Positions 6,459-63,534 of a stretch of 64,000 nt of DNA are shown in pieces; within the stretch, counting starts at the first letter, position 1; each line of letters starts with the position of its first letter. Under the pieces are notes generated by a model. It was not told where the DNA came from. It did no database searches and saw nothing but the letters and a program-made list of their open reading frames with translations. The stretch spans positions 496,001 to 560,000 of the forward strand of contig WBVU01000004.1 in NCBI GenBank assembly GCA_009192285.1, given 5' to 3'. A program made the position numbers and the translations under genes. Source of the DNA: Morchella semilibera (taxonomy: Eukaryota > Ascomycota > Pezizomycetes > Pezizales > Morchellaceae).

Positions 6459-7077
6459 TTGATCCGATAAAAGAGGTTTACGGCTTATGTCCTTTCTATT
6501 AAATACCTGTTCACGGCGAATATCATGTCCTTACACGCGGGTTATACTACAATTCGTAGTTCTTTTATCATAATCCCTCTTACCTTCAGATTTTACTCTA
6601 CATAGCCTGTGTATTGTATATCTAAAGAGTAGGATTTATCTAGGCAAAATACCCACGGTTTTGGTCATTGGTTTTCTCTTTTTTCTTTTTGGTTTGCCTG
6701 GAAAGTCGTAGCGAAAGTTGTGACCCCGGTACTGAATGTGGCAAGGATCTATACGGCAGCCCTCTCTTTTATGCTCCAAACATACATGTACATGTATAGA
6801 AAAGGGGCGGGTTATGAGGTAAAGGATTACGAGGGCACCTTGCCATATTATTCTCAAGCCGGAGAGTAAACAACTTGCAACTTCAATATCTCCGGTAGAC
6901 TACGATGCTGATACCGGTGGGACAAGACAGTATATTGACCAATACTAGCAGTTATCTATCTGGGTTTCATGGCTATCGCTAATAGTAAGGGGGGAAAATG
7001 GCCAATCATGAGCCATCACTCGATATCTAAATAATGCTGAGACCTTTTGTCCATTCGAGCCTAAGCACACGCTACAC
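6459..7077. other. Gap between convergent MCM3 and HEM4 3' ends
   Basis: This 619-bp stretch has no convincing gene. It carries overlapping TACATGTA palindromes near 6783-6796 and one composite 17-bp motif at 7006. Confidence 0.5.
7006..7022 (+). other. Composite intergenic motif, copy 1
   Basis: Reads TCATGAGCCATCACTCG. It lies 56 bp from the HEM4 stop, between two convergent genes, so it is not in an obvious promoter. Confidence 0.7.
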
Positions 7078-8017
7078 TTATGACTGGGTCTCCATAAATC
7101 CTGTAATTCCATCCAATAATCCTTCAGGGTTCGGCTTCTTTGCTGTTACCTCCGGCTTTCGATCCAACGCATCCTCTAGACACTTCTCAGTTGTCGGTCC
7201 AATGGCTGCAATGCAAGACCCACTCCCGTTTCCCGATGCCCAATGCTCTTTAAGAACGTCAACAGCCACATCTGCCCCCGATGGTGAGAATACACAAATC
7301 CATCTCATGCTCCCGCCCCCATCCGTTTCCTTGACCACTTGTGTAAATTCCCCCCGGAAGCCTTCCTCAACGGTGGTTTCATAAATTACCATTTCTTCGA
7401 TGCCTATGCTCGCTTCTCGAAGTGTTTTGGGAATGATATCGCGGCGAATCTCACCTACGAGGAAGAGGATAGGCTTTTGAGGCTTGCTATAGGAGGAAAC
7501 TATAAACTTTGACAAAACCTCACCGTTCCCGCATTCAGCACCAAGGACGTTGGAGGCGGTGAAGCCAAGTTTGGTTATCGCTGAGGCAGTAGCGGGGCCG
7601 ACAACGTAAACGACCGTATTTGCGAGTAGAGGCGCCACTTTGGCCTCCCATATGGGGTTTTCTGCGGGTGGTATATAATTTGAGATTCGAGTCCTATATA
7701 CAGGAGGGGATTGTAGTTAAACCTTTAATCCTATCAAGCACCGCCCCAAGTGCCTCAACTGCACGCTGTGACGTGACTATCAGCGCACCATATCCTGCCT
7801 CTGCGTCCTGTTCAAGTTTGCTCGAAGTGATGACCGACTCTAGTGAATCAAGGTTGATATGTTTATGTTGCAGCACGGGGACAAAGATCGGTTGGAATGG
7901 CACCACAGGTCCCCCGTTGGCAGGACGGAAGGGATTTTGAGAGAAATAGACCTCGTAGGGGTCCGTTGGGTTTGAACGGGTTTTGAGGAGGAGGAGGGGG
8001 ATTGGTGAGGGCGTCAT
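7078..8017 (-). CDS. HEM4: Uroporphyrinogen-III synthase
   Basis: Two exons, 8017-7723 and 7661-7078, give 292 residues, the usual length for fungal HEM4. The enzyme closes and rearranges hydroxymethylbilane to uroporphyrinogen III, the fourth step of heme synthesis, in the cytosol. Support comes from the family pattern: N-terminal LLLLKTRSNPTDPYE, a central LIVTSQRAVEAL, YVVGPATASAITKLGF at the start of exon 2, and a C-terminal segment with VFSPSGADVAVDVL and IAAIGPTTEKCLED. The 61-nt intron runs 7722-7662 with donor GTTTAA and acceptor GCAG, and joins IKENPIWEAKVAPLL. It is divergent from YIF1 across 462 bp. Confidence 0.92.
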
Positions 8018-8479
8018 GGCAGGCAGGCAGGTAGGTAGTAGATTAACTATGTAAAGTAGTGGTTAAGAAATAATAACTAGCGTAATAGAACAAAATCCCT
8101 CCTTGCATGTGGATGGATGATCTTCAGTGATTCAGAGATGGGGCGTTTTTTTGTTTTTTTGTTCACTGGGAAAGCTTGTCTCTGATTAAACAAATGAAAG
8201 ATTAATTAATTTCTATGAGGCTCGGCGGTGCAACGTCACGCAGAGGATCCCCAAACTCAGCCTCACGCGCCCCCCCCAGACAACCTAATTCGCCCACCAC
8301 CCCCTTGCTCTGATAATATCATGCACCTAAATACATAACAACACCTTTACAACTCTCTCTACCTCTCATAACCCTTCTTGAACTCAACTACCACTGGACT
8401 ACAGATAACTACCCGTATACCAGCTATCTCACACTCACATCCAAAATTTCCCCACAGTCCTGTTAACAATACATCCACT
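8018..8479. promoter_or_regulatory. Bidirectional promoter between HEM4 and YIF1
   Basis: This 462-bp gap separates two divergent genes. The YIF1 side is CT/CA-rich, as expected for a fungal 5' UTR. No specific box was recognised. Confidence 0.45.
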
Positions 8480-9663
8480 ATGCAGCGCCCAATGTACCCC
8501 GCCAAAACCCCTCCACTACATCATCCAGTACCCCAGAAACCCGTCCAGGTACCTGTGATGCACTCTCCACCACCGCCACCCACATCCTCAAACTCCTACA
8601 ACTCCCCATATGACAACCCTAGCTACTCTCAACCAAACGCCCGCGGCATCCCCGGGGGAAATCTACATCCCCAATCCGCTGCATACCCGTCATGGGTGCC
8701 GCAAAACATGAACGGGAATTTCTTCTCCGACCCAACAGCGCAGATGGGCTTCTCTGTCGCGAATGCTGCAATGTCCCGAGGGACGGATATGGCTGAGAAA
8801 AACGTAGGCCCCCTTTGTTACCTTTTCCGCTCTTTTGTTTGGACTGTCAGACTGATAGTAGTAACCGCATAGCTGAACCGCTACATCTCAGCTTTAAAAC
8901 CATATTTCGCAGTGACAAATACCTACGTTCTTCGCAAACTGCGGATTCTTCTATTTCCATTCTCGCATACTCCCTGGTTCCGCACATCCACCACACGGCC
9001 CTCCACCACTCCCGGGGGTCCGCTAGAATACTCGTATCTACCGCCAAGCGAGGATGTCAATGCGCCAGACCACTACATTCCGCTTATGTCCTTTGTGACG
9101 TACATCCTCTTCAACAGTCTTCTCACCGGGATCTCGGGGAACTTCCACCCTGAACAGCTCGCACAAACTGCCACTACGGCGTTTGTGATCATCTTCTTTG
9201 AGCTCGCGGTGCTCAAGATGGGCAGTTACCTTTTGAACATCAACGGTGGTGAGGGTCAGTTTTTGGACTTGTTGGGGTACAGCGGGTATAAGTTCTTTGG
9301 CGCAATCCTTACGATACTCATTGGGGAGGTGACGGGGATGAATAGCTGGATCTCCTGGACTGTGTTTACGTACTTCTTTGCCGCAAATGCGTTTTTCCTT
9401 GTAAGATCCTCTCTTTCATACATCCCTCTTGAGTATTTCTAACATAAACACGATAGTTGCGGAGCCTGAAATATGTGCTACTACCATCGGAAAGCGGGCA
9501 AGATGGACGAGATGTGTATACAAACAGCTCTTCGGCTGGTGTGCCTAGGGGACAGAGGAAGAAGAGAAGGACCTGGTTTTTGTTTTTTTATAGTTATGTT
9601 GTGCAGCTGATTTCGGCGCTGATTCTTACTAGTAATGTGGGAAAGGGTTCGAGCTCTAAGTAG
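8480..9663 (+). CDS. YIF1: YIF1/Hrf1 family Golgi membrane protein
   Basis: Three exons (8480-8803, 8873-9400, 9457-9663) give 352 residues. I chose the ATG at 8480 (MQRPMYPAKTP); an in-frame ATG at 8378 would add 34 low-complexity residues. The N-terminal ~110 residues are Pro/Ser/Asn-rich and cytosolic. The conserved YIF1 domain starts at LNRYISALKPYFAVTNTYVL and includes PLMSFVTYILFNSLLTGI and several membrane helices, the last being FFYSYVVQLISALILTS. YIF1 binds YIP1 and works in COPII vesicle fusion between ER and Golgi. The third exon begins LRSLKYVLLP, a family signature. The frame is intact. Confidence 0.92.
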
Positions 9664-9939
9664 AGATGGAAAGAATAGTATTCGGTGTTGTATGGTAGTG
9701 ATAGCAGGACAACAATAACCGCATTTTCTTGGTTTGAGTTTTAGTAATTAGGTTGTGTGAGGTAATATGTATGATAAGTGTGCTGCGAGGAATACAATCC
9801 GGTATTGGGATTTTTATTAGGAAGAGCGGGGTTATTTGTATTTGGCAAAATGCCGGTAAGATCCCGTGATTTTTAACATGTGCATTACTTAATCCTGGGA
9901 CAGGTATAAATAATCCTGGGCATGGAAAAGGAATTCTTG

Positions 9940-9956
9940 CGAGTGATACACCGTGA
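9940..9956 (-). other. Composite intergenic motif, copy 2
   Basis: Minus strand reads TCACGGTGTATCACTCG, about 280 bp after the YIF1 stop. Confidence 0.7.
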
Positions 9957-10324
9957 CCGAAGCATTCTGGTTAATTTACGTCCCTGGTTACTTATATGTA
10001 TGTGCAGATCGTAGTATCTCCCGACGTTTTTATCGCACTTTGCAACCTATGAACTTGTATACATAGTAGGGCAACGTTTGTGTTGTCCTTGTAATACGTG
10101 TTTATTTTACCCTGCTTTTCTTAGCGTAAAAGGAACCCCTCCCTTCGTCTCTTGTAGCAATACTTCACACTTCATGATACAAGTCTCTGTTTCTGAAGAT
10201 AAGCCTTCTATTCAACATCTCTTTCATAGGACAGCGCTCCTATTTCGACGCCTATTCTACCGTCAATTCGCTCCGATTTATAGAGCGGTAAATTTATCAA
10301 ACGTAATCTTACCAGAGGCGGTAT

Positions 10325-10476
10325 AAGCACTGAATTTCAGTCCTTGTGTCACACTATACTAGTACATACTTACATGTAGTAATCTTCTACCAGTGATATA
10401 AACACTGAATTTCAGTCTGTTCTATACCACATAAGTAAATGTTCAATACCTACCACTGAATGACAGTGTTGATATA
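10325..10476. repeat. Direct plus inverted CACTGAATTTCAGT repeats
   Basis: The segment ATAAGCACTGAATTTCAGTC near 10325 recurs as ATAAACACTGAATTTCAGTC near 10398. A third, inverted and imperfect copy (CACTGAATGACAGTGTTGATA) lies near 10455. The last two could form a hairpin with a ~35-bp loop. It may be a MITE relic or a structured RNA; origin unknown. Confidence 0.5.
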
Positions 10477-11094
10477 TATGGCCCCCTTTGGGCAAAAGGT
10501 CTGTAAACGCTTTAGTACTAAATTTAATGTGATACATTTGCCCGTTTATGTTTATGTTTGTCTGCTTAGTTCATCCAATGTGATGGGACGGAGATGAGTT
10601 AGGGGCCTGGTATATACTGCAGGTCTTGATACTATCATATATTAAGAAATATAGGCCATATGCATAATAATGGGCTCATTGATCATTACCATACGTACAC
10701 CAACAGGCTTAGTTACTATGCACACCTGGACACCTGTTCACATAGCCTCAACTCTAGATAGATGGCAGCAGAAAAGAAGAAAGGGGAAAGGGTGCCCATT
10801 GCCGCCGTATCAGCAAGATTTGAGTTTGTTGGGCGATATGATACGATCTTACAACATGGCTGTAACTAAGCCAATCGTGCCCCCAACGTAGGCTAGTGCA
10901 ATAGGTAGGATTAAACAGAAGTCGTATAAAACAAACATGGTCGAGGGAAGGGTTTGTTTGTCCTGTTAGGATGGTTATATTAGTGATGGTTTTTATAATA
11001 CAAATTAAAGTTTGATGGTCCTCTGATCAGATAAAAGACTTGAAGATATCGGTTGTGTAATTGCCATTGCATAAAGAGACATAATTTGGCATAC

Positions 11095-11111
11095 TCATAG
11101 TGTATCACTCG
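11095..11111 (+). other. Composite intergenic motif, copy 3
   Basis: Reads TCATAGTGTATCACTCG, 1.6 kb upstream of ERG5. Confidence 0.7.
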
Positions 11112-11521
11112 CACCTGGTCTGTGCGTTGTGGGTGGGAGGCTGCATGTGCACCCTGACCTCCTTTGCAGTTCGCAAGCTGGAAAACTAGTCCGGCAGCGA
11201 GATGGTAATCGCTATCTAGCAGGAGTTCAGGCCCCTATTCCTAGGTCGATATCTGGCTGTATTCTACAAGACTCTATTCGCGTTCTGACGTCTTTTCGTG
11301 GGGCTGCATACGCCATTATAACCTTTGTTATAACGGGCGAGAACTTATTGGGCTTGTAGTCTGTGCCGTGCCACTTTCCAGTGGGACTATTTGTCTCGGA
11401 TAGGGTAAAGCTTTAGTCATGGAATACACAGAGCAGATACCCTGGCAAGGCTCGGTTTAATGAAATAGGTTTCTGATAAGCTCAGTGGTCTGAGCACACC
11501 CATAAAACGCACAGCAAATTG

Positions 11522-11538
11522 CGAGTGATAGTCTGTGA
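11522..11538 (-). other. Composite intergenic motif, copy 4
   Basis: Minus strand reads TCACAGACTATCACTCG, 411 bp from copy 3 and in the opposite orientation. Confidence 0.7.
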
Positions 11539-12742
11539 GGATAGTATCAGCATGTTGAGATGCTGTCAGTATTCGCTTTAGAGGTAGGGGGGACGCTGTT
11601 TCCAGAGCTCGCACAAGACACAAAGTATCTTGCAGGGTATGCAGTCAATAATTTTATTCGTACTGAGCCGCCGGTAGTACGGCAAACACAGAAACTTTAC
11701 TCAATTGCTTGTCTTGCAGTGCTCGGCGAAATATCCCGGAAAGGAGTTAGCCGAGGGAGAAGTAGCCAGGATGACGACAAATGGGTGCGCGAGAGTGTGG
11801 TCTTTAAATGGCCCCATTAACCACGTGAGTTCTAGAAAGAAACGTTCGTGTATGTGCCCTATTTTTTTCTCATTACGCACATACGTTAAAGTGGTATGGG
11901 TTTCCACATATCAGACAATGGCCAGTAACCCATGTCAATGGGAGAACGAATACGAATATATAGTACTCTGCATACTGTGGAGTACATAGATAGAGTGCAA
12001 GTCTTATCGAGGTACATAGTCGAGGTAGATGCAAGTATTTATGATTTCGAGGCCTCCGATAAAATCAGAATCAGGGTGGTTAGATATTACCAATTAGCCG
12101 GATGGATAAGTAAGTACATGTATGTAAGTACATTGGATGCGAGCATATATGGACACAACAGGTCGAATCATGTTGTGGGCTGTGAACCCTGAGATTAAGA
12201 AATTACCCCTGACTGCAGTGATTGGACAAACTCGGGAGTGAGACCTGCCGTAACTGTGTAGATAATCTCAATAATCAGATTGTTGTAGAAGCCAAGCCCC
12301 CTCAACCATTGGGACAGACAGGGCCTCTGTTTAGGGGAAGAAAACTCATGTTATCGTTGCCATTAGTGATAACCTCCCATTGAGTAGTCGGTTGTTGTTG
12401 ACGTTACCTCTGCCTGTAACAGAATCGGCCCCGGGAATTGATTTATCATACCCTCCTTCCCCCTTCTATCTTGCCCTTTCCCCTCCTCTTTCTTTACCAT
12501 CTACTTCGGCCTCTTCATCACCGGCTGAGTGTTTCTCCATCTGTTGTCGCTGGTGTTCAGACTGTCCATTACGGTCTCTGCTTGTTTGTTTTACGTCAAA
12601 GGGCTTGTTCTCCCCAAGCCTTTTCATCAGATTACTGTTCTCGCTTGCTACAGCTAGATCCCGTTTTGACCTTGTATCGTATCTATCAAGAAAATAGGAT
12701 ACACGCGGCTGCGTTTTCCTACTTTTCCATCGATAACGAACA

Positions 12743-14605
12743 ATGGCAGAAATAACAGCCAACTCATCCACTTTTGCGCACCCCTCGGCCGTCAGTTCGG
12801 CTGAGCAGCCTTTTCAAAGCCTTGTAAACACAGTTGGAGAATTGGGGAAATCCCTCGAGGGAATAAGCGCGTGGCAGGCAATCATTACCATTGTACTGTT
12901 ATCTGTGACCTATGATCAAGGTTTGTTGCTCTTATTCACCCCTTTCTGGAAATTGTGATAAAAAATGTGATAAGTGCAAGTATTCCAAGCTAACACTGCA
13001 TTTCTGCACTTAGTTCGCTACATTTGGCAAAAGGGCAGCATTGCTGGACCAGCATTTAAGATCCCATTCATGGGACCTTTCTTGGAATCTGTCAATCCAA
13101 AGTTTAGCGAATATCTTGCAAAATGGAACAGCGGGCCACTGAGTTGTGTTTCAGTATTCCACAAGTATGCCACTGAATTTATCCCGAGGAAGAATCTCGC
13201 TAATTGGCCCATAGATTTGTTGTCATCGCTTCAACCAGAGATTTGGCCCGCAAGGTTTTCAACTCCCCTGCATACGTCAGCCCTTGTGTTGTTGATGTAG
13301 CGAAGAAGATTCTCCGACCCGAGAACTGGGTTTTCTTAGATGGAAAGCAACACGTCGAATACCGTAAAGGTCTCAACAATCTGTTCAGTCGTCAAGCCAT
13401 GGGCATGTACTTGCCTGGCCAGGAGGATATCTATGACTCCTACTTTAAGAGGTGGTTGGAACTCTCAAAGGATGGCAAACCTATCCCATACATGAGCGAG
13501 TTCCGTGACATCAACTGCGCCGTTTCCTTGCGCACTTTTGTAGGACACTATATCACCGATGAAGCTGTCAAGGAAATCTCCGAGAACTACTATAAGATTA
13601 CTGCTGCACTCGAACTCGTCAACTTCCCCATCATCATCCCATTCACCAAGACCTGGTACGGAAAGAAGTGCGCCGATTTCGTTCTTAATGAATTTGCAAG
13701 ATGCGCTTCTCTTTCCAAGATTGCTATGGAGGCTGGGAAGGAGCCTGGCTGCACTATGGATGCCTGGATTAAGTCCATGATCGACGCCAGAGACGCTCCA
13801 CAGGAGGAGGGACAGAAGATTTCTTCTAAAATCCGTGTCTTTTCTGATATGGAGATCTCCATGACTATCTTTACATTCCTTTTCGCCTCCCAGGACGCAT
13901 CTTCCAGCGCCAGCACTTGGCAATTCCAGCTTCTTGCTGATAGGCCCGATGTTATGGCTAAGGTCCGCGAAGAGCAGCTTCGCGTTCGTGGCGGTGACCC
14001 GTACAAGCGCCTCGACTTGGACTTGATTGATCAGATGGTCTACACTCGCGCCGTCGTCAAAGAGCAACTCAGATACCGTCCCCCAGTTATTATGGTCCCC
14101 TATGAAGTCAAGAAATCTTTCAAACTTTCTGACAATTACACCGTTCCCAAAGGTACTACTTTCTTGAATTTCGTGTAGAGAAAGCAAAAAAGGCTAATAA
14201 GGTTCAGGCGCCATGGTTATCCCCACCCTCTACCCAGCTCTTCATGACCCTGAGGTTTACCACGACCCCGAAGCCTTTAACCCCGACAGATGGTTGGAAG
14301 GTGGTGAAGCTGAGGCTGCAAAGAAGAACTGGCTTGTGTTTGGTACTGGACCTCATGTCTGTCTTGGTCAAAACGTAAGAATATCTTTCATAGGATAACC
14401 TGGTTGGACTTGAACTAACACTTTGCAGTATGCGATCATGAACTTCATGTCCATGATTGGTAAAGCCTCTCTAATGATGGACTGGGAACACCACACAACA
14501 CCTAAATCCGAAGATATCAAGGTTTTCGCAACAATCTTCCCTGAAGATGATTGCCATCTTGTTTTCAAGGAACGTCTTCCTCTGACACCACCAAAATCCT
14601 CATGA
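12743..14605 (+). CDS. ERG5: Sterol C-22 desaturase, cytochrome P450 CYP61
   Basis: Five exons (12743-12920, 13014-13164, 13215-14152, 14208-14374, 14429-14605) give 536 residues. The enzyme introduces the C22-C23 double bond late in ergosterol synthesis at the ER membrane. An N-terminal hydrophobic anchor (about 42-58, [14 protein letters not shown]) is followed by CYP61 markers: [13 protein letters not shown], the I-helix region [16 protein letters not shown], the ExxR motif EQLR (E393, R396), FNPDRW, and the heme loop [10 protein letters not shown] with Cys474. The [20 protein letters not shown] junction across intron 2 confirms ERG5. All splice sites are canonical GT-AG and the frame is intact. 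I saw no clear sterol-response element close to the start. Confidence 0.96.
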
Positions 14606-16091: not shown

Positions 16092-16109
16092 AATATCCAA
16101 TGTAGCCCA
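16092..16109 (+). repeat. Right target-site duplication of the retroposed insert
   Basis: Perfect copy of the 18 bp at 15260-15277. Confidence 0.85.
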
Positions 16110-19522: not shown

Positions 19523-19539
19523 CGAGTGATGGCTCATGA
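19523..19539 (-). other. Composite intergenic motif, copy 5
   Basis: Minus strand reads TCATGAGCCATCACTCG, identical to copy 1 at 7006 although the flanks differ. Confidence 0.7.
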
Positions 19540-21600
19540 ACTTGAGAGCCCACAGAACCACCCCCCTGTCATATTGAATACCGAGGTGCGACGGAGAATA
19601 GGTGCTGAGTTAGCACCGTGGGGTAATAATATGCCAAGACCAAAGCGCATAAGCCACCACAGTACGAACCGTGGATCAATCGGCTTCAACTTTCTGCTGG
19701 TTTAACCTAGGTAGTTGCCTCTTAGCTAAACAGGTTGTGTAAACGTAGCACGGCCCGGAGGTCCCCAGGTCTGATGTGACAAGGCAAGCCGAACTGCAAT
19801 GGCCCGCGATGAAAATATTTCTTTGCTGGTACAGGACAGCCCAAGCAGGTGTATAGGCCCAACGTAATATTGGGAATTTGTTTAACCAATGTCATCAAAC
19901 CTTGTGGAGTACAAAGTCTCAGTGCAGGACTTGTCCTTATTAGGCGGGTAATATCACAATGCCACTTACCCAGTCCTTATAGCGATGTCTTGTTGCACAT
20001 CCATTTCTCCGGTGCCAGCGGGGCAACAGGTGGCTGAAATAGCCGCACGAAACTGTCGAACCAAGTAAATACTTGAAAGAAGATAAAGGTATCAGTATTC
20101 CTATACGATGTCATTGTACAGTAGCCAATAAAACCATATTAATTCCCACTATAGTACAGCAAAACTATGGTTTGTGTTATCAAAGACAAAGTGCGATACT
20201 ACATACATGTACATGTATACATGTAGTTTTGCTACCCGCTAATACTCATGGGTGCTTACATGTATATTTGAATTGTATACCTCCGTGTCAAAAACCCCGA
20301 GACAAGTCCTCGCGGTTGCGTTGTCCCAGCACTTTTGAACAAGAGCTACACCAACATACTTCCCAGTCAATATTGACCAGGTCACTATTATATGCATAAG
20401 GGTACATGTATATTGTTTAAAGATGTCTCGTCTGCAGAGCCTCACCGGCTTCGAAAGTCAAGATACATAGAACCGACTCCACCACCTCTATCTCTTGGTG
20501 AAAGGCTCAACTCCAATCTCAATCACAGCAACGCCGGTAGAATCCCACTTGTCACCGCGGTCCAGCTACATGTACTTATCGAAGGCCAGCGTTCGGAGTT
20601 CCGTCGTGGGGTATACATATATGCAGGTCCCCTCCCAACCGAGGACCGACTCGGGGAGCTGGTGGGCTGGTTGGTCATCGATGCTCAGATCGGCGCGGGG
20701 TGCTCTTGTCTGTTCCGCGGGACGTTTATGCATGCAACACCAGACCAGTGGATCACAGGACAGCACTCGGGTCTATCACAAACCTAACCCACCCGGCAAC
20801 CAAGTGTTCATCCAACACAAACAATCCGCCCAAGATACTGGCACGGGCAATGGCCTGAACTCCGCATGGAAGGTGCCACCGACCACAGCCGTCAATCGCG
20901 CTACACAGAGGGTCAAAATGTCACGCCCAGGTGAACTAACGTACGTACCCCGGGTTTGAGCCCGTCGCATCTAACATGTAGGTGCATGCACTGTACTGTC
21001 CGCCCCCCCCCCCCTTGGGTCAAGGTAAGCTCGGTATATATGAGAGAGAGAGGTAAAGTACACACCACGAGCTAGGTAGAGCCCACGATTCGCGCTTCCC
21101 AGGGGACGATGGGGATAAGAGCTGCATGTAGGTTGCGTAATGTACATACCAGCTGCAGTCAATCAATCAGGCAGGGCCCTATGTGATCATGATATACCCA
21201 GCCGGCCGCAGCCCCCTCCCAAAGGCACCAAATCAACCAGACTCACACCGCCCCGCGCCAGAGACAAACACACAAAACACACTGACCCTCCCCTCCCCCC
21301 CAAAAATGTTCTGATAGAATACATGTACCCACGAGCACATAGACCCAGCTCCCGGGCCCGACTACTGACATGGACGTACGTACCTACGCGGGAGTAAAAA
21401 CTAATACAACCTCACGCCCACTAACCCATTGTCGCAAAATGCTGCAGATCGGTCATTGATATATGGGCTGGGTGTTTGGTACTCTTTTATGTAGAGGGAG
21501 GGGGTCACTACTACACTCCTCCTCCCACAAGCAGCAGCAGTAGAACCAAAAGACTCAAGAAAAGATTAATTACTATAAAACTATAAAAAAAATACACAGA

Positions 21601-24600
21601 CTATCTACCCCCACCCGTCGCCACATCCGTATAATACCCCGTCATCTCCAACCTCACCACCAACACGCCCAACACATTCGTCTCCTCCGCGCCCCTCCCC
21701 TTTCCCCCGGCGCCCCCCACCCCGTCTCCATACCCCCTCTTCTCCGACAAGCCCCTACACACGCTGATAAAGATGCCCACCTTCCTTCGGAACACCTTAT
21801 ACAGCTCTCTGATCTCGCCCTCCCTCCTCCTCTCCTCCTCCTCCCCACCGCCGGCGTGCCCCCCCTCCGCAAGCTCGTGGCTCCACCTCGCAAACGCCAG
21901 CACCGCCACAAACACCTCCTCCACCAGCTTCATCGCCGGCGCCTGCCGCCGCCTCGTCAGCGTCGCAAACATGATCCTATCCAGCACGCCCTCATGACAC
22001 GCCCGCAACCGGTCAATACCCTCTCCCGCCAGCGCCTCCTCGCCGCTACCGCCGCCGTCCCCCAGCGCCGAATCGATCGCCGCGAGCCGCTCCTCGAAGC
22101 GCCGCCACGGCGCCGCAACTCCCGTCTCAAACATGTAGGCTGCGACCGTAGTGACAAAGTGGCGGGCATCGATACGGAACCGCTGCGCGGTGGGCGACTG
22201 TCTGCTGCGCGGCCAGCGGGAGGCGCGGGCCGTGGCGTCGCGGTAGAGCTTCGCCGTGACAAAGAGCATGCGCAGCAGGCGGAGGAGGAGGCGGAAGAGG
22301 CGGTCGTAGCGGTACAGCGCCGTGGGCGTGATGATGGCGTTGAGCGGCGGCGGCGGCGTGTAGTGCAGCTTGAGGAAGTCGAGGGCACTGATGGAGTGCG
22401 GGTCGAGGCAGGCGGCGAGTTCGGGCGGGGTCATGTCGCGGACGGCGAAGCTGAGGTTGCCCGGGAGGGCGTGTTCCTTGCCGGCCGTGTGGATGCCGGA
22501 GGGGCTGCTGGCGTGGAAGGAGTCGGTGAGGACGCCCATGAGCGCTAGTCGGAGCTCCGAGGAGCCCGGCGGCCATGTGTCGCGCGAGCCAAGTTTGAGG
22601 CCCATGCTGCCGCCAGTGCGGTACTGGCCAGGGTGCTTCTCGGTTGTGTCGAGGTCGTCGGAGAAGAGTGCGTTGGAGAGGCGAGAGGAGAAGACGCCGT
22701 CGCCAAAGAGCTGAAAGCGCCGCAAGAGGGACAGGTGAGTGCGGATATCGTGCTCGCGGAAGAACATGCGCAGGCAGGCGATGTTGATGAGTTTTGCCTG
22801 GGCGGCGAAGAGGTGCGAGAACGAGAGCATAGGCGTTATGGAGATTGGGGGCGCAAAGGTCGTGAGATGGTCCTCCTGCTCCTCCTGCTCCTCCTCTCCT
22901 TCTGCGGGGCGCCCACTGGTGGTGATTGGTTTGTGAACAGAACTAAGGCGGGATATGGAGAGGACGAGGCGGCGAAGGGTATCAGTGCGGGAGGTTGAGA
23001 GTGGGGGAGGAGGAAGGATGGCGTTCATGGTGGAGGCCGAGTGAGAGATCATGCTTATGATTTCCTCCTTACTTTTCCCAAACGTGGGGAAGGCCTCAAA
23101 GTCCACGGGGGTGTCATTACGGAGTGCGCATGCGGGCAGTGCGATGGAGCCACCGGAAGAATATTTCGAGATTGCGGTCTGTAGCTGCCGCTCGTAGTTC
23201 TTTGCCTGTGCCTGTAAATTCTCGAGATCTTCCCACGAGAACTTCCATTCCAGCTTTGGCGCTTTAACGCCCTCCACTGCGCCGGGCTTGCTCAATGGAT
23301 GGTTTGGGTGAAACTGCTGTAGGAACCTCAAACTCTTGCCCGTCTCGAAAATGCTCTCTGCCGTCTCCACGCTCGTAAAGCTCGGCACCTTCTTCTTGTC
23401 GAATACCTATCATCGCCATCAGCACCTCCGACAAAAAAAACCAAAAAACCAAATGAAATCAAACGCACAAAGTTCCTCTTTGTGACCTCCTGCCCACGCT
23501 CATCCACCTCCACCTCCTCTTCAACCCTCACAAACAGCCCCCTCTCTACCAGTCCCTCAAACCCAATACCCTCACCGCCAATAGGCCTGTCGAGGCCGAT
23601 CCACTCCTCCAGAAAGCCCAGCCACGGCCTCGAGACCCTCGCAAGCGTCTCCATGAGCAGCGGCCTCAGCCACCCGCTCCGGTGCTGCTCCTGCTGCACC
23701 ACATCAAACAGCCTGGTCAGCAGCACAGAGTCATTCTTGGCGCCCGCGGTCTTGGTAATGATCGAATGGAAGGTATTTATAATGAGCGCGGGCTCGCGGA
23801 TCAGGGAGTGCAGGTGCAGTATGGACCTGATGGTGGAGGGCGGAATGCTGAGCCGGGCCTGGATCGACTCCAGGATCGAGGTGATGCAGTCTGCGAGGGC
23901 GATCGTGGACGGGTTTGGGCGGGATGCGTAGATTGAGGATGTGTAGGACTCGAGGAAATGGATCTTTGTGCCTGTTGTAGCAAAGGATGTGACGATACTA
24001 CATTCCCGTCAGCTACAGTTCCTCCATTAGAACTACCAGGGCCGAAAGACTAACCTCTCCACCGTCCCCGCTGTGCACCCCGATATCCTCAGATTCGGCC
24101 TCACGGGCCTAAACTCCTTCAGCACCGGATCCCAATCAAACAGCACACTCGAGCGCCCCAGACCCAGATGTAACAAGCACTACCCTCTCTCTCCATTAGC
24201 ACCCCCACTCCAACACCGAGGGCCAAGGGACAAAAAAAAAACCAACCGTGCAAAACACATCGCTCCTCACGACGACATCCCCCACATCCTGTCCCTGCTG
24301 CCGCTGCACAAACTCTGCCCACGCCGCATCAAACACTCGCGGCCCCGCCTCCGTGAAATACGGGTTCGCAGGCTCCTCCGCGCCCTCGACAAGAAAGCTA
24401 TCCCACGTCTGGAACCTGGGCTTGTCCGGCGCCCTGCACGTGTCGGGCTGCGCCCACAGGTCCACACTTGTATCCGAGGACCCATCTCTACCGTTGTCGT
24501 CGTCGTCGTCGTCGTCGGCGTTGCCAGTCGATGATTGCGTCGAGTCACCACCGCCGGAGGGCTGGGGCTCGGGCTCGGGAGTGGCAGCGGTGGTAGTGGT

Positions 24601-29192: not shown

Positions 29193-29209
29193 CGAGTGAT
29201 CGGTTGTGA
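29193..29209 (-). other. Composite intergenic motif, copy 6
   Basis: Minus strand reads TCACAACCGATCACTCG. It is the only copy with G at position 9. Confidence 0.65.
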
Positions 29210-37547: not shown

Positions 37548-37564
37548 TCACGAACCATCACTCG
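37548..37564 (+). other. Composite intergenic motif, copy 7
   Basis: Reads TCACGAACCATCACTCG. Confidence 0.7.
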
Positions 37565-37770: not shown

Positions 37771-37787
37771 TCACAGCCCATCACTCG
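37771..37787 (+). other. Composite intergenic motif, copy 8
   Basis: Reads TCACAGCCCATCACTCG, in the same orientation as copy 7 and 223 bp from it. Confidence 0.7.
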
Positions 37788-41214: not shown

Positions 41215-41231
41215 CGAGTGATAATTCATGA
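41215..41231 (-). other. Composite intergenic motif, copy 9
   Basis: Minus strand reads TCATGAATTATCACTCG. Confidence 0.7.
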
Positions 41232-41394: not shown

Positions 41395-41411
41395 TCATGG
41401 GATATCACTCG
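41395..41411 (+). other. Composite intergenic motif, copy 10
   Basis: Reads TCATGGGATATCACTCG. Together with copy 11 it is part of a longer 19-bp identity (CG plus the motif) on either side of TOP3. Confidence 0.75.
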
Positions 41412-44582: not shown

Positions 44583-44599
44583 TCATGGGATATCACTCG
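44583..44599 (+). other. Composite intergenic motif, copy 11
   Basis: Reads TCATGGGATATCACTCG, identical to copy 10, 225 bp upstream of the outer TOP3 ATG. Confidence 0.75.
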
Positions 44600-46075: not shown

Positions 46076-46092
46076 TCACGATGTATCACTCG
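46076..46092 (+). other. Composite intergenic motif, copy 12
   Basis: Reads TCACGATGTATCACTCG, about 440 bp downstream of MITE A. Confidence 0.7.
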
Positions 46093-54747: not shown

Positions 54748-54764
54748 TCACAAACTATCACTCG
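54748..54764 (+). other. Composite intergenic motif, copy 13
   Basis: Reads TCACAAACTATCACTCG. Confidence 0.7.
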
Positions 54765-54893
54765 GACAAGCGGTAGACTTGCATCTGGTTCTACGACGGG
54801 GATTCAATAGGGTATAGACATATTGCTAGAATCTGATATTATCTCGGATAGTATAGGTTAATTGTCAAGTGGTTTTGAGAGGCGGTGATACGC

Positions 54894-54910
54894 CGAGTGA
54901 TATTTCATGA
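54894..54910 (-). other. Composite intergenic motif, copy 14
   Basis: Minus strand reads TCATGAAATATCACTCG, 146 bp from copy 13 and facing it. Confidence 0.7.
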
Positions 54911-55717
54911 ATAAAGCGCTGTTGTTCATTTATTATATGCAACTCGTAGGTTTCGTGGATGCATGTAACTTGAAGGTGTTTCCAGCATTACGTATCTAGT
55001 GTTGCACATAGTACCTAGGCCTATAAAAGTAGCTATTGAAATTATATTTAGTCCGAAACTCATTTTTGCAGATTAGGCTCGTTTTAATGGATGCCATGGG
55101 GTAGGGGTGCATTGTTGCTTGTGGAGTTGTGGGAGACAATAGGGAGCTATAGATTATTATTTCTCGCTGACAAATCTTGAAGAAAATATAAGATTCTAAA
55201 AACTTGCAGTAAATAACTATTGATTTCCATAGAATGTATCTTACAAAATTTAACTTGGTTGCTATTGTAAAAACAGAACAACTGCATACAAGGGCCAACG
55301 CGGATCAACACAGACACGCATACACACATACGCACACAACTCCTACTCCCTGCTCTATCGCCTTTTGTTCCCTTGGGTAAAAGTAATGATACGCCATCAA
55401 TGAAACCCAAACATAAAACTTTACTACCCCCATTTAAAGGACGTCCATGGTAGTTGTAGAAATAAATATGAGAAGGGAAGGGGTAGGAGGGGATAAATAA
55501 GGGAGATGCTGTAAGTAAACCACCCCAAACCTTTTGAGACGTAACCCAGAAAAGAAGGCACATAGGAAATGTCCACGCCAAAACACATAATGACATGTTA
55601 AGGCCGGGATGGTATCATAAAGACAAAGGGAATAACCGCAAATAAACAATCCCCCACCCAAAGACTTAGACGCCAAAAAGAAAAATGTAGTGAGAAATAT
55701 AATAAAAACTGGGTATA

Positions 55718-58700
55718 TCAAATATAAGGCGTAGCCACAGAAGAAGACCTTGACCTGGTATCATTGACCTCCAATTTCGTCCAATCCTCACCATCAAGTA
55801 ACGGCCCAGGAATTCCATCCCACCCAGAAAGCGAGGCAATTGACCCGCTCCTCTGATGATTGGCTAAACGAGCACTTGAACTCGCAGCACTCCCGGGTGC
55901 TGATATCCCAGCAGATCCGGCATCAGATGATGTGGCCGAAGCCACAATAGAGGCTTTCCTATCTCCTTCATAAAAAGCAGCTTCAGTTTCCTCTGTCAAG
56001 GGACCTGGTTCGCCGTGAATCGGCCCGCCCAAGATTCCCATGTCTACCGAAAGTCGGCTTCCTGGAGCAGTATTGGAACCAAGTGATCCGACAGGAGAGG
56101 TTTTTTGAAGGATACGTTGTTCAAAAAACGGCGCATAATCTTCAAAGGAGTCTGATTTCGGGCGCGGAAGCGCACCGTTGACCGGTTCTGCATCAACGCC
56201 ATTTGCAACAAGAAAGTTTGTCAACATATCAATAGCATCTCGAACACCTCCTGCGTTATTTCTGGTATAAGTAAAAGATACGGTCTGGTTTTTCGCATAA
56301 TTTTCTTTCCTCTCAAAATTCATTTCAATTCCAAACTGTCTTCGCATAGGTTCAGTAACTTGGTGGTGGATCGCTTCTCCATGGATCAGATCCTCGAGTT
56401 GTCTCGATCTCGATAGTTGAATTTTATGAGATTCGGGAACATGAGACTAAGCCTGTTAGATAAAACCGCGATGTCGGGAGTGCTACTATTTTAGAAGTGC
56501 ACATACCAAGAATTCATGAACGGCTTGAGGGATTTGCCACTCAGGGCCCTTGATTTTTACCACATCACTCGCTGATTCAGTACTCGGAAATATAACCGAG
56601 CACCCCCATTTTGCCTCGAGGTCATCAAATATTTGGCGTTGTGCCATCAATGGTCGGTGGAGTAGTCGTGGTACAATGACGTTTTCCTCCACAATTTCAG
56701 CGTCTGCCTGTTGAACCATTTTCATAATTTCTGCCTTGACCAGTTCAAGATTTTTCGCGTTTCTAGCCGGCGTCCTGCAAATAACGTTATCCACCTTAGA
56801 ATCATCGCATTCCATTCTCCCTGCAGAACCCCTTTCCATTGCGTTAGAAAATTTTACAAAAACCGAATATTTTTTCATTATCCTCTGGATATGTTGTCCG
56901 CCAATCCCTATGATGCGCTTGTGGTAAGAATCCGGGACATGAAAAGACACTGATGCCGGAAGCTCATGCTCAACCAAATGTAGACCTAAGGCTGCTTGCT
57001 CAAAATTATTGGAAACAACGTCAATGAAGAAGTTGTATTCGTTGAAAGCGTCGAAAACTATTTGTATACCGGCTTGACCCATGATTTTGTTGATTTTACC
57101 GTTCTTCTTACCAGAAACGAACTCCTTGTGTTCGTTGGCGAGCTCAATCTTTACCCGGGTCTGAAACGGATACTGCTTGACGAGGCGCACCTCGCTCAGG
57201 ATATGCATGGCGATCTTCACACAGTCGTCTACCCCACACATGTCAAATGATTGCTTGTTGAAAGCAATATCAGCACCACTAAACGCTGAGATATCGGTAA
57301 TCATTTTTCTGAGATCCTGTGGCGCCGGCAATGAAGTGAGTTCGCCATGGTGCATGTCTGGAGGGATCATCCACCAGGTAGCGTTATAATACTGCCCACA
57401 GATAGCCATGATTGATCGGACTGTGCGCTCAATGTTGAGGGTTTCTGTTCCTTGGATCCTCATGCAGACATCCTGTTGTCCCAAAGACCCGAGGCGTGGT
57501 AGTTGGACATAAGTAGCGTTCGCCTCCATAATTTTCTTGATATCATCCAAACGTTCAAGAAGAAGGTAATCAAGTTTCGTCATTGTGATGGAGACGTCCT
57601 TAACGTAAAGCCTTAAGCCACGACGCTATAGCAGCAATCAGCAATCATTTCGACAAGCAAAATAAGCATTACCCTTACAATATTGGCAAGCATCCTTTCG
57701 GCTTTGGCAATATCCTCGCGGCAGCTACCTGTGATGAATACCTGATCCGGATCTCGTAAGGTAGCAAAAGGGGGTCTATAGCCGTATATACGCGGGAATG
57801 GTGGCGGGAAATAAATGGCCGTCCGAGTCTGGGATTCGATATGCTTGATGTTCTTTCTTCCACGGCCACATATTAAGCTTTGCGTAGACAATTCGACAAT
57901 TGTAGTATCCAATACTTGGCCCAACTAAAAAAAAAGATGTATATGAGATCGATACCATTAGATTGAGATGAGGGTTATATGCTTACCAAATCATCAATGG
58001 CAACAAGGACTCTTGTTTTTGCATGCTCAACACTTTCATAGTCGCCGTAGATTTTTATTTGCAATCTGTTGCTTTGGCTGGTGCTGTTTCCAAGATCTGC
58101 TGCCGCCGCAGCGTCTGCGCTTATCCCGGGAGTCTTCAATAGAAAGATGTCCGTTCCGGTAAAGCTTGCTGTGTGCTCTAGATGAGTAAAGAAGCCCTCG
58201 TTGAGGACATTCTCTTCGTCATAAATTTGCTCACGATCAATGTTCACGTAGGCTGTTCTCTGCGCAAATAGTTTTTTATTACTAACCTATTCTCTCATCC
58301 CCCAAGATCCTCTGGCCAAACTTACTAGTGCGACTGGAGTATTCTGCATAATCAAGCCCCTGGCCCGCAACACCGACTCCGGATTACCGGATAGCCATAC
58401 GTTTGTAATAATCCCCCTCTTAGTCTGTCGATAAGATCCGTGTTGAGGCTCGGACACCGTCAGGGCCGCCTCGCACTTGAATTCTGATGAGTCGGATATT
58501 TCTTTGCATAGTTTCCTCAATTTGTCCACATTCGCCTGATGTATCGGTAGTGAATATGTAGGAGTGTCGTTATCATTAGTACGTTCTACTGTCTGTATCC
58601 ATTTCTCTTTCGCTCCCGGGCTTGCCGCAATTATGTCATTGGGGTCCGGACCTAGCAATATGCTAAAAGGAATGCAAAAAGAGTAGCTGACAGGGTTGCT

Positions 58701-58850
58701 TTCGTCCTTGGGTTTTGTGAGGCCTTTACTGCCTGGAGAAAGAATAACTGGCGAGCCACTGTCGAATACAGGTTTTGGTGGCAGTCCATGGATCGGTTGT
58801 TGTTGGTGGTGGTGATGGTGGTGGTGATGTTGGTGGTGGCCGTTGAACAT
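55718..58850 (-). CDS. Multi-KH-domain RNA-binding protein (vigilin/Khd4-like)
   Basis: Five exons (58850-58326, 58259-57987, 57924-57679, 57625-56507, 56446-55718) give 963 residues, all phase 0. The protein opens with a His/Gln run (MFNGHHQHHHHHHHHQQQ). KH-type units follow; the clearest are GRGRKNIKHIESQTRTAIYFP (GRGR loop) and YHKRIIGIGGQHIQRIMKKYS (GIGG loop). Other units look degenerate in the GxxG loop (for example NGKINKIMGQAGIQIVFDAF). The C-terminal 200 residues are Ser/Ala-rich with RSRSSS. Proteins of this type bind mRNA and act in stability, localisation or hyphal growth. The frame is intact. The exact orthologue is an inference. Confidence 0.82.
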
Positions 58851-60951
58851 CGTGAATTTCTACTTCTGACAAAAACACCCCCTCTTTGAGATAAATACGA
58901 GGCTCGGAATTTTGGCGTTGCGAAGGGATCACAGGTATTTATAGTGGGGACGTGACGGTGGTAGTTGGGGCTCTCAACACCCAGACCTTAGATAATGATG
59001 GGTGATGATGGGTGATGATAATGAACGAACAGTGACGATTGATACTAGTAACAACGCGGGTGGGAAGCTTTGGACAACCGTAACTGACACAAAAATGCGG
59101 GGCGACACGAAGAGGGGAAGGAGAAAAAAAAAGATTAAGAAGGCGAAAGAAGAAATTGGGACAAGCGAACTGAAGGTCTTTTTATGGGGGGTGGGGGACG
59201 AGCTGGTGGTTGGTGGCAGATGGAAGGGCCCAAAAGAAGCAGCGCTCGGAGAAGACGAGAAGAAAGATCGAAAGGGAGGGAAGGATTATAAAACTTTGAC
59301 TAGTGTGAACAGTCTTTTTTTTTTTTTTTTCCTTCCTCGTTCGCTTGTTATGCACTTGGTATGTCTGTCTGATTTGGCTGGCCTAAGTGTATCTGTTCGT
59401 TCCCATTCAGACACTGCAGCAGTGAGTGAACGCGCTCGGGTGTCAGGCAAAGCTAATGGGTGAACACTATCATTTATAAAAGTACAGCGGCCTTCTTAGG
59501 TACAGCATAGTGTGTACATACATGCACGTATATACACGTGCGTACAATACGTAGGTATAATGTACATATACATGTATGTACGGAGAAGCCGAGGGCTCTC
59601 TCTGATTGATTGATCTGAGGCTCAGAGGATGGGGGGGAGGGGGGGTGCAACTGTAGTTAAAGCCAAGGAGATGGAATTGAATTGAATTGAATTGAATATG
59701 GAGAAGAAGTAGAAGAAGAAGAAGAAGAAGAAGAAGAAGCTAACACAGGATCTTGGAGATGGGTGATCATGATTAGGATCCTAAGACGACAAACTCTGGG
59801 CGATGTGAATGAGGGTGTGGGTAACTGGAAATAGAGATCTGCATCGAATGCCAAACGTGGAGCACAGGCCACCACAACCTTAAGATGTTGGTAAACACCA
59901 TCAATATAAGTACAGCAATTGTACCTTTCATCACAACCACAAAACACACCTCCGCTACTCACTATCACGAAAAGAAAAGAAAAGAAAAAGAAAAATAAGG
60001 GGAAAAAAAGAAAAGAAGAGAAGAGAACTTGGTGTTTGATAAACCACGCGGGGGAGATGGATGAATGACATTGGACTGTAGAGTAGCAGGTTCTTCGGGT
60101 ACGACTTCTTTCTCTGTGTTACCGAGTCTGACGCGACGGCGGAACCTCCTGCAGATACAGACAGGCACTTCATCGTGGGTGACGAGAGAACTTGCCGTCC
60201 AGGGAGTCTGGAATTCTGACGCTTCCCACTGAGCTGCTGCACTTGGATAGACCGTTGCCCAAATAATCAGCGTCTTGTCATCACTTATACCAAATGACAT
60301 ACATGTATGCACACCCCGGATCTTATGAGAGCGGTCGTCATAGGCACCACGATGCCTGATAAAGAAGGGCTTCTTCCTCTTACTAAAATCGTCAAAGCTT
60401 TTGTTTGCACATAATCTGCTATTTATTATTATGGTTAACCTATTCCGGTATTCTTGGATACTAGAGCTATATTACATGCACCTTAGAAGATGTTAAATCC
60501 TCGACGTCTCCCTAAAGGGCTAGAGGATGTTCATCGTCTATGGGGAGGGGGGGCGCAAACGAAACAATTCGCTTCGTGATCTTCGGTCGCGATGCTCATA
60601 CAAGCTTCTAACGGTTCCCGGCGGCTCTGTGTCAATCCCACAAGCCACTTAACGGTTCTGAATCGTCGGTAGTTGCCGAATCTTCGAATCACGGCCACAA
60701 ATTGTGGTTGGACCTCTGAGATCACGTGAACAATTGACAAAACAAAATTTATTTACAGACATGTCTGTGACCAGGTAACCACCTTAATAATTATCTGCAG
60801 TCCTAGGAACTTAGGGACCATCTCAGTAAATACGATATATCCAGCCATAGATGTCAATTACTCGGATGGAGTTAACCAATATCCCCATCACCTATTCATA
60901 CAATATCACTCTTTTCCCCTTTACTAAAGAAGGGGAGGGGGAACGAAAAAC
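58851..60951. other. 2.1-kb gene-free region
   Basis: Holds the KH gene promoter and the 3' flank of the next gene. There are microsatellites at 59676-59742 (GAATT pentamers, then GAA triplets), a T run near 59315 and TACATGTA near 59569 and 60300. Open frames around 59965-60312 on the minus strand are unrecognised. Confidence 0.45.
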
Positions 60952-63132
60952 TCAATATTTCCCGCCGTATCTAGAGTCTCCATACTCGCTTCCAGCATAA
61001 GGAAGCCTTGGCGGCGGCTGCATTTGTCCTGAATCCCTAGTAAACCCCCCTGTAATTGGTTGAGGTTCAATATACTGTTGCCTCGAGTCGTCTCTTCTTC
61101 CTTCGGGCCTCACACTTTGTTGGCGGATCGCGTATTCCCTTTCTCCATAGCTCCTCGACATTTCCGGTCGCACACTAGCATGTCTCATGGGTAGATATCC
61201 CCTCTCATCAGGCCTAGCGCTTGCGCGCCCACCATGATCTCGTTCCCTCTCGTCCGGCCTAGGAAGGGATCGATCATGATAATCACCCATCTCACCAATA
61301 CCACGAGAATAATCCAGAATTTCCGTGGGTAGCCCCCCAGGTGCCCTAGATGCTGCTCTTGATGGTGCTCGAGTATATCCAAGAGGTGGCGGAGGATATC
61401 CGCCCCCAACGGCTGGGGGTGGCGGTAAAGATTGCCTTGCTACTGCTGAATAAGAATATTCCCTGTCTCTGTAGCTTCTCGCCTCCGCTTCCCGGGCCAT
61501 AATACTACTCTCTGGTCTTGGCGGTTCGTTGTAATGAACAGAAGCTTGAGCCTGATAGTAAAGTGGTCTTTCATCACCATAAGCTTGTCTCTCACGAGGC
61601 GGGGTGTAGGGATGTCCATATTCCGCAGCGTACATCTCACTACCTCGCTGCTGAGCGGATAAAGGTGGTGGGATCATAGTCCTGCCATACTGGTCGATAC
61701 GAGGAGGATCTATGGGCATTCTGCTCTGTGGCCGATAATCTGCGTGAACTGGCCGAGGTGGCGCTCTTCTCCCACGCTCGGCAGGCGAGATAGAGCGACT
61801 TGAACGGCGAGGGTGCTGGTACGGCCCCGAAGGCGAAGTAGATCTTCTTCCCGCACGCGAAGGTTGGCGTATTGGTACTGGTGGGGGCGGATACCTACGG
61901 TCATATTCATCATAGGGTGGTCGTGGGGGATATGCTGATGCCACTGGAGGCACATATACTGGCGTGTAAGACCTGCGCGCATAATCAATTGGCGCAAGGG
62001 GGTATGCATACGAATCTGCTTCTCTGTGCGAATAGGGGTCGTAGGGGCGATGAGCTGGTACAAGAGGGGGTGCGGGTGGGGAAGGGTAGTAACCAGTTGG
62101 GGGAACATATGGGTATTCGTAGCGTGCCCGACTCCCAGTATCTGAATATTGGCCAACACGGCCCGGAGATCTTCCTCTGTCAGGAGTCTGCACTCGCGGT
62201 GCCGGTTCACGATAACCAGGAGATGCAGGTTCGGGTTTGATGTAGGGCGCCGGTGAAACTCGGCTTCTGTACGGAGCTCTCCCAGCATTCCCATATGGGA
62301 TTTCTGTATCAACCTCGACTATCATTCTCTGATCCTGTGATTCTACACGAGCCATATTTGCTGGGCGGACCGGCTGAGGCGCTGCTGGTGATCGAAGCTG
62401 GCTAGTAGCAGAATAGTGGGGTCGGGCTGGCGGCGAATAGACGCGTTCGGGAATTATATCACGTGTATTATGAGATGTTGTTTCTGGCTCTCCATGTCCT
62501 GAGGATTGATCTTGTTCCCGTGAAGTAGACATTGCAGCTGGGCCTGTAGGTGGTTTCCGCAGAGCTTCGACTAAACTCTCTGGTTTTTGTTCCTGTTCTA
62601 GAACTCCTGTCCTCCTTGGTGCAGGTTCTCCTGTCTGCAAATCCATATCTTCATTGCCAGGACGGGTACTTCTCGTTACCGAAAGTCCAACCTTCTCCAT
62701 TACCTCCTCCAAATTAAGATCGTCCTCATTCATGGTTACTTGTCTTTTCTCCTCGACCTGCCTCTTCAACTCCTTCTCTATTCGCTGCCTCTTCAGCTTT
62801 ATTTCTGCATTTACCAAAACATCTGACTTTGACAACAAGATGTCACTTATTTGGCTCTCTGTAATTTGACTAGTAGAACCAGGCCAACCTTGTGATTGAC
62901 TACGCGATAGGCCTGAAGAGTAGTTCTTGTCGGCTGAAGTCCCAGAGCTCGAGTTTGCGGGCTGCGCGGTTGATCTCAAAACTGATCCAGGTTGTGAAGC
63001 TGGTTTAAAGCGGGGGTGTTTTCCTGCATATATTTCATCGCGAAGCTTGATGATTTTCAAATATTCCTGGATTTCGTGTTGGGTCTCGGCGCTATTTGAG
63101 GGCATTGAGGCCATTTGAATGTCTGTAGCCAT
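60952..63132 (-). CDS. Uncharacterised Pro/Arg/Tyr-rich disordered protein
   Basis: A single exon of 726 residues starts at MATDIQMASMPSNSAETQHE; no ATG lies further upstream in frame. Residues about 18-40 form a helix (HEIQEYLKIIKLRDEIYAGKHP) that may be a small conserved module. About 105-135 is a coiled coil (VNAEIKLKRQRIEKELKRQ). From about 200 to the end it is disordered, with repeated PPP, RPE, YPPP and SRSISP-type motifs and many Tyr and Arg, a composition often seen in RNA-associated or phase-separating proteins. I do not recognise it and assign no function. The frame is intact. Confidence 0.8.
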   Translation of the reverse strand: MATDIQMASMPSNSAETQHEIQEYLKIIKLRDEIYAGKHPRFKPASQPGSVLRSTAQPANSSSGTSADKNYSSGLSRSQSQGWPGSTSQITESQISDILLSKSDVLVNAEIKLKRQRIEKELKRQVEEKRQVTMNEDDLNLEEVMEKVGLSVTRSTRPGNEDMDLQTGEPAPRRTGVLEQEQKPESLVEALRKPPTGPAAMSTSREQDQSSGHGEPETTSHNTRDIIPERVYSPPARPHYSATSQLRSPAAPQPVRPANMARVESQDQRMIVEVDTEIPYGNAGRAPYRSRVSPAPYIKPEPASPGYREPAPRVQTPDRGRSPGRVGQYSDTGSRARYEYPYVPPTGYYPSPPAPPLVPAHRPYDPYSHREADSYAYPLAPIDYARRSYTPVYVPPVASAYPPRPPYDEYDRRYPPPPVPIRQPSRAGRRSTSPSGPYQHPRRSSRSISPAERGRRAPPRPVHADYRPQSRMPIDPPRIDQYGRTMIPPPLSAQQRGSEMYAAEYGHPYTPPRERQAYGDERPLYYQAQASVHYNEPPRPESSIMAREAEARSYRDREYSYSAVARQSLPPPPAVGGGYPPPPLGYTRAPSRAASRAPGGLPTEILDYSRGIGEMGDYHDRSLPRPDERERDHGGRASARPDERGYLPMRHASVRPEMSRSYGEREYAIRQQSVRPEGRRDDSRQQYIEPQPITGGFTRDSGQMQPPPRLPYAGSEYGDSRYGGKY

Positions 63133-63517
63133 TTTTTCAGCGATAAGAAACACCGCAGCAGCGGATAGTACTCCTAGAAACCCTGTGAGTAGTTACTCGT
63201 TCGTTGAAGTTCTCTGGCTGGTTGTGAGCACTGTTGAGCTTGATAAGGAAAGGAGGAAGCAAAGGACAAACTGCCAAAATGACGAGACTCATCAGATAAC
63301 AATGCCAAGAGCCAAGACACAAACGAACCAAGATTAGATCAAGGACCCTACATGTAGCTTCAGTTAATACGCTGCCATAAGAACGAACGACATGCATATG
63401 TGCTACATGCTGTCGACCCCACATTTTGCAAGATCTATTATTTCTCTTCACTGTAAGTGACGGTTGACGCCTTGCATCATTAACTATTGTAATCAGTTGT
63501 AAGTAACAAGGGATTCT

Positions 63518-63534
63518 TCATAGACTCTCACTCG
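63518..63534 (+). other. Composite intergenic motif, copy 15 (variant)
   Basis: Reads TCATAGACTCTCACTCG. It is the only copy with C instead of A at position 10. It lies 386 bp upstream of the ATG at 63132. Confidence 0.6.

Follow-up and report, generated by a model that had tools for sequence, protein, structure and literature searches.

A 17-bp composite site, TCAYRRNNYATCACTCG, recurs thousands of times in this fungal genome as a rigid two-part motif that is depleted from predicted coding sequence and whose flanks are independent from copy to copy. Its distribution further suggests that fewer sites lie near gene starts and that convergent gaps are preferred. The anatomy of the motif makes it close to certain that we are dealing with a binding site, presumably for a protein. 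We favour, tentatively, a putative DNA-binding protein with a long footprint that would act as an architectural or barrier factor.

Copies of the motif in the window

The first-pass annotation had listed 15 copies in the window (the whole stretch of DNA analysed, 64 kb). A scan of the window recovered all 15 at the same coordinates and on the same strands, 13 of them exactly and two with one mismatch (Table 1). The accompanying chance expectation of 0.002 per 64 kb was also correct, the pattern holding 26 bits. When up to two mismatches were allowed, 20 places were found versus 1.12 expected, and the maximum in 100 shuffles was 3. The places beyond the earlier list have either one mismatch (20753) or two (4388, 17288, 23038 and 60896); those at 4388, 17288 and 23038 fall inside predicted coding segments and may be chance matches. 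The window, whose 13 exact copies amount to about 200 per Mb, is denser than the genome as a whole (53 per Mb).

Table 1. Positions of the 17-bp motif and its near matches in the 64-kb window
Feature	Position	Strand	Context
Motif copy, exact	7006..7022	+	Profile score 24.7; convergent gap, downstream of MCM3-like gene
Motif copy, exact	9940..9956	-	Tandem gap
Motif copy, exact	11095..11111	+	Tandem gap
Motif copy, exact	11522..11538	-	Tandem gap
Motif copy, exact	19523..19539	-	Overlaps isolated, doubtful 147-bp predicted coding segment 19505-19651
Motif copy, one mismatch	20753..20769	+	Profile score 18.7; predicted gene start 46 bp away
Motif copy, one mismatch (position 9)	29193..29209	-	8.2-kb gap without called genes
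Motif copy, exact	37548..37564	+	Convergent gap
Motif copy, exact	37771..37787	+	Convergent gap
Motif copy, exact	41215..41231	-	Convergent gap adjoining topoisomerase (TOP3-like) gene
Motif copy, exact	41395..41411	+	Same convergent gap as 41215, adjoining TOP3-like gene
Motif copy, exact	44583..44599	+	Tandem gap; flanks non-homologous to 41395 past ~7 bp
Motif copy, exact	46076..46092	+	Tandem gap
Motif copy, exact	54748..54764	+	6-kb gap without called genes; 54894 copy 146 bp on
Motif copy, exact	54894..54910	-	Same 6-kb gap without called genes as 54748
Motif-like copy, two mismatches	60896..60912	+	Profile score 19.1; convergent gap
Motif copy, one mismatch (position 10)	63518..63534	+	Profile score 23.9; past last called gene

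Reading frames in the window match the MCM, carnitine acyltransferase, gamma-tubulin complex component, type I topoisomerase, P450, PPR and KH families. Ribosomal protein L3 of this genome, matched in five pieces, has chains 7r81, 7olc and 8oo0 (Neurospora and Chaetomium) as its nearest solved structures, followed by yeast-type chains; the host is thus probably a filamentous ascomycete, perhaps outside the Sordariomycetes and perhaps a Pezizomycete. No tRNA was found in the window, and neither the window nor stretch L009 gave an Rfam match at gathering score. Below the family cut-off, a 5.8S rRNA match lies at L009:1501-1672 (C19:2699587-2699758); it was the sole one for this assembly among the 39 of 1,209 candidates scored, and looks like a fragment.

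A rigid two-part site

A refined profile with an information content of 22.8 bits identified 66 sites in 294 kb; at the same threshold 20 column-permuted profiles gave 0 or 1 sites each and the reversed profile gave 0. This sample, also used for the gene-gap analysis, comprises the window and 23 stretches of 10 kb (L010-L034 minus L019 and L022, duplicates of L018 and L021), and the window, as the place of discovery, favours the motif; it supplies 18 of the 66 sites.

Conservation along the site was assessed in 73 profile-chosen sites outside the dense cluster L035 (C1:1433001-1443000). Positions 1-3 and 11-17 are near-invariant (70-73 of 73), positions 4-6 and 9 prefer two transition-related bases, and positions 7-8 are loose. 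The clearest departures outside the 17 bp are the scarcity of T at position -1 (3/73) and of C at position 0 (6/73). There is a mild dependence between positions 4 and 5, where CG is the rarest pair (9/100, P = 0.011), as judged from 100 exact sites among the matches listed (72 distinct, all on C1).

The proposal that the two boxes form a single rigid composite site was borne out by their spacing: in 325 kb, TCAYR and TCACTCG separated by a gap of 5 gave 71 matches, and each of 13 other gaps gave 0 or 1. Dyads from the motif rank among the most over-represented gapped pairs in the sample, alongside dyads of GTCG-like words. Outside the motif the half-site TCACTCG is about as frequent as control words are (24 of its 81 copies; control words 21-35). 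Runs of T downstream of the site, hinted at in L035, were not borne out elsewhere: they accompany 3 of the 73 sites, versus 2 with such runs upstream. The site combines a fixed core, some degenerate positions and unrelated flanks (the upstream flanks in L035 excepted), as a protein-binding site would, and the two boxes, 10 bp apart, plausibly contact one face of the DNA.

About 14 bits would suffice to locate some 7,000 places, compared with the 22.8 bits that the site carries. This mismatch between information and copy number calls for an explanation that a simple one-protein reading leaves wanting; the surplus may point to a pair of proteins, to binding that is unusually tight, or to some process of copying.

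Genome-wide abundance

The 23 contigs of the genome (56.76 Mb) were scanned with three patterns and their reversed controls. The exact pattern gave 3,036 matches versus 2 for the reversed pattern, the looser TCAYRNNNNNTCACTCG gave 7,131 versus 18, and the bare core ATCACTCG gave 8,723 versus 930, totals that include some double counting because of near-duplicate contigs. A frequency at chance level, by which the motif could have been dismissed, is far exceeded. In the sampled 10-kb stretches, contigs C9/C10 and C12/C13 are 100% identical over 9.95 kb, and C21/C22 have an identical core pair in common; these are probably haplotype or assembly duplicates.

Position relative to genes

Gene calls came from our own scoring of dicodons and used neither intron models nor transcript evidence. 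The motif had been described as lying only between genes, which holds approximately: 4 of the 66 profile sites in the 294-kb sample lie mostly in predicted coding sequence. Two of these come from the window (17288, and 19523 in its doubtful segment). Given that 38% of the sample is predicted to be coding, the anticipated depletion is pronounced (P = 3e-9), and avoidance of coding sequence is firm. Stretches L035 and L037 were chosen for their site density and were excluded from the coding and gap statistics; of the 66 sites, the gap statistics take in the 42 whose gap has a called gene at each end and omit the other 24.

Under the default calls there are 63 such gaps; of the 42 sites in them, convergent gaps contain 21 (0.55/kb), tandem gaps 17 (0.27/kb) and divergent gaps 4 (0.27/kb). 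Under three other settings the convergent and tandem densities were 0.49 vs 0.36, 0.58 vs 0.27 and 0.39 vs 0.40 per kb, respectively, the convergent excess being gone under the strictest calls (the last pair). Within 500 bp of a predicted gene start, the default calls gave 2 sites versus 8.5 expected (P = 0.006) and the other settings gave 3 vs 6.5, 6 vs 11.5 and 1 vs 5.4 (P = 0.09, 0.03 and 0.011); when sites were compared inside their own gaps, the depletion reached P < 0.05 in two of the four settings. Avoidance of gene starts is likely and enrichment in convergent gaps is a lead; both trends are modest and depend on the gene calls. The scarcity of sites up to 500 bp from predicted gene starts agrees with the early view that a plain promoter element is unlikely. 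It lends no support to the accompanying statement that sites lie in promoters, at least to any notable degree, the gene-start counts being under expectation in all four settings.

These distributions bear on whether the motif serves an ordinary, very abundant transcriptional regulator (an activator or repressor) with distal intergenic sites and a very large regulon. The site resembles that of a transcription factor, its copies are mostly non-coding, and 6 of the 42 gap sites are found at 500-1000 bp from a predicted gene start. However, fungal regulators usually bind less than 500 bp from gene starts, where few sites are found here, and the density in divergent gaps is not raised. We regard such a regulator as rather unlikely, while giving it serious weight.

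An origin of replication recognised by its sequence, through ORC or a helper, and present about once per 8 kb (looser pattern), would suit a long, rigid, mostly non-coding and genome-wide site, and its frequency would be appropriate. In these respects the motif recalls the Saccharomyces ARS consensus bound by ORC, likewise a long non-coding element at an origin-compatible frequency. The ARS consensus is A/T-rich, whereas the motif is of mixed composition and the base composition within 150 bp of the 73 sites is flat, with no A/T-rich neighbourhood that might aid unwinding. Sequence-specific origins are known only from a few yeasts, and the 8 same-strand copies in 10 kb of L035 would be redundant as origins. 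Taken together, these observations make an initiator site improbable.

We judge it equally improbable that the bound protein acts like Reb1 of budding yeast, as a roadblock that stops RNA polymerase when it reads through past the end of a gene. The lean toward convergent gaps would be expected of such a terminator, as would a weak orientation bias against gene direction in tandem plus convergent gaps (26/38 sites under default calls and 22/33, 27/42 and 17/29 under the other settings). Against this, sites are not enriched within 500 bp of 3' ends when their own gap is held fixed (12 observed vs 13.1 expected), and several copies have no called gene within 1 kb.

Flanks and the question of copying

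The motif had been judged not to be a transposon family, its flanks being unrelated apart from the pair at 41395 and 44583. Across 80 sites, flank identity in register was about the same as out of register, both upstream (0.2530 vs 0.2508, sd 0.0012; 1.8 sd above) and downstream (0.2495 vs 0.2506, sd 0.0014). The judgement therefore stands and the flanks are generally unrelated, but the claimed kinship of the pair was not confirmed: their best local match is 24 bp, made up of the common 17-mer and about 7 bp. Comparing flanks by BLAST yielded overlaps where sites are close together, some short matches, and a single shared repeat next to two of the sites (L008 and L028). Since flanks lack homology outside one cluster, the copies do not form a repeat family. 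A transposon or MITE family was rejected, there being no homology beyond the motif except locally in the L035 cluster and the L008/L028 repeat. Stretches L016, L031 and L032, called retroelement-like from long frames judged by eye, hold 0, 0 and 1 sites, respectively.

The exception is L035, where the upstream flanks of 8 same-strand copies are alike (0.356 vs 0.251) and the downstream flanks are not clearly so (0.321 vs 0.309); we read this likeness as local duplication. In the same gene-poor stretch, CTCTGGCCGCGGTCTACCGCACACAGA-like units with partly alternating 39/43-bp spacing form an array (L035:3936-4617). Elsewhere, three motif-like units stand in tandem with an 18-bp period (L001:1501-1553), which suggests local duplication of the site.

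Spread of the 17-mer by a repeat or by faithful copying, its flanks long eroded or never copied and the site possibly non-functional, could account for the information surplus, for the local duplication (the 18-bp array in L001, the upstream flanks in L035 and the 133 same-strand core pairs described below) and for the slight upstream excess in flank identity, but is very improbable given that this residue is tiny and missing downstream, that sites are strongly depleted from coding sequence, and that the profile-chosen sites are almost constant at positions 1-3 and 11-17 but free at 7-8, a pattern of recognition and not of neutral decay.

Neighbouring sites

No strand rule was found between neighbours, of which 24/45 are on the same strand versus 23.1 expected (P = 0.44) among the first 46 places of the exact scan, which cover the first 562 kb of C1 and were taken to include every match on either strand. 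Of neighbours at least 100 bp apart, 20/44 are on the same strand. Core pairs whose sites would be separated by 3-33 bp comprise 40 facing (37 once duplicate contigs are set aside), 27 back-to-back and 133 same-strand pairs; evenly spread cores would give approximately 10, 10 and 21, respectively. This excess of close pairs reflects in part confinement to non-coding DNA and in part local tandem duplication. Helical phasing at 10.5 bp was not significant for inward (P = 0.27) or outward (P = 0.55) close pairs. With neither a strand rule between neighbours nor phasing of opposed pairs, a CTCF-like orientation code is not visible.

Two dense clusters were found on a single strand, with 8/8 profile-scored copies in L035 and 5/5 in L037 (C1:860201-865000), both picked from a plus-strand listing that favours such a result. 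The flanks of the five same-strand copies in L037 are unrelated by eye.

Discussion

Avoidance of coding sequence, sparse gene starts and the presence of sites in convergent and long gene-poor gaps lead us to prefer a barrier or architectural role for the motif over a promoter role. An architectural, insulator, replication or silencing function would each be conceivable. We propose that a putative sequence-specific protein reads the two TCAY-containing boxes, one helical turn apart, within a footprint of about 19 bp whose outer positions (T rare at -1, C rare at 0) would contribute weakly. A length of 17-19 bp corresponds to approximately six zinc fingers or two modules, so that candidate readers include multi-finger C2H2 proteins and proteins built of two modules. 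Several C2H2 arrays were located in the genome, candidates among them lying at C15:514388-515669 and C7:243933-244676, and could supply such a reader. Bound at several thousand sites, mostly non-coding and off promoters, such a protein might separate adjacent transcription units or chromatin domains, a role comparable to that of insulator or general regulatory factors. Points against this model are the loss of the convergent excess under the strictest gene calls and the absence of an orientation code.

The motif resembles CTCF sites of animals in being long, asymmetric and information-rich, in its thousands of intergenic copies and in its candidate boundary role. Unlike CTCF sites, it follows no orientation rule at the one contig end analysed, and its core sequence differs from that of CTCF sites. 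A fungal counterpart of CTCF, that is, an unrelated protein that evolved independently and uses the 17-19 bp site to mark borders of domains or transcription units, is an unlikely form of the barrier model. According to a 2023 review (PMC10246852), fungi lack CTCF, their boundary elements are only incompletely characterised, and domains in two yeasts are delimited by convergent genes. If the sites were bound and active at borders, they would constitute a sequence-coded boundary element for filamentous fungi, and the boundary-element question in fungi would become testable with one oligonucleotide. Even as the site of an ordinary regulator, a 23-bit motif with approximately 7,000 copies that is sparse at gene starts would be unusual.

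Among budding yeast factors, Reb1, Abf1 and Rap1 also have abundant, strong sites and are barrier-capable, and the Abf1 site (TCRYnnnnnACG) is two-part like the 17-mer. The sites of these factors are shorter than 17 bp and located in promoters, whereas the present motif is longer and, whichever of the four settings is used, has fewer copies than expected close to predicted gene starts. The motif does not fit a Reb1/Abf1-type factor, as its profile differs from their known consensus sequences and its sites are not concentrated in promoters. The pairing-centre sites of nematode ZIM/HIM-8 proteins and the Tetrahymena Cbs likewise consist of a short fixed motif in many copies with unrelated flanks. 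Those motifs are confined to particular regions or number in the hundreds; by contrast, core pairs of the fungal motif occur on 22 of 23 contigs (C8 missing) among the matches listed.

Among the matches listed for open-licence papers (titles and starts of abstracts), no such site was described for ATCACTCG, CGAGTGAT, TCACTCG or TACATGTA, nor did the matches listed in a topic search of open-licence papers describe one. Portions of the Pyronema confluens genome paper (PMC3778014) mention no such motif.

A second intergenic motif

The palindrome TACATGTA is also over-represented between genes; in many copies a TA stands on either side, two bases beyond it. It has 126 copies in 309 kb, compared with 2-11 for six other palindromes, and 1 of 121 copies lies in predicted coding sequence. 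Only at 300 bp is there any co-location with the 17-mer, and it is weak: 23 cases against expectations of 16.9 and 17.5 (P = 0.057 and 0.041, respectively); at 50, 100, 200, 500 and 1000 bp there is none. Genome-wide, the palindrome occurs at 22,206 places versus 3,723 for the reversed word, and the window contains 27 copies, for example at 6783, 20204, 41277 and 54682.
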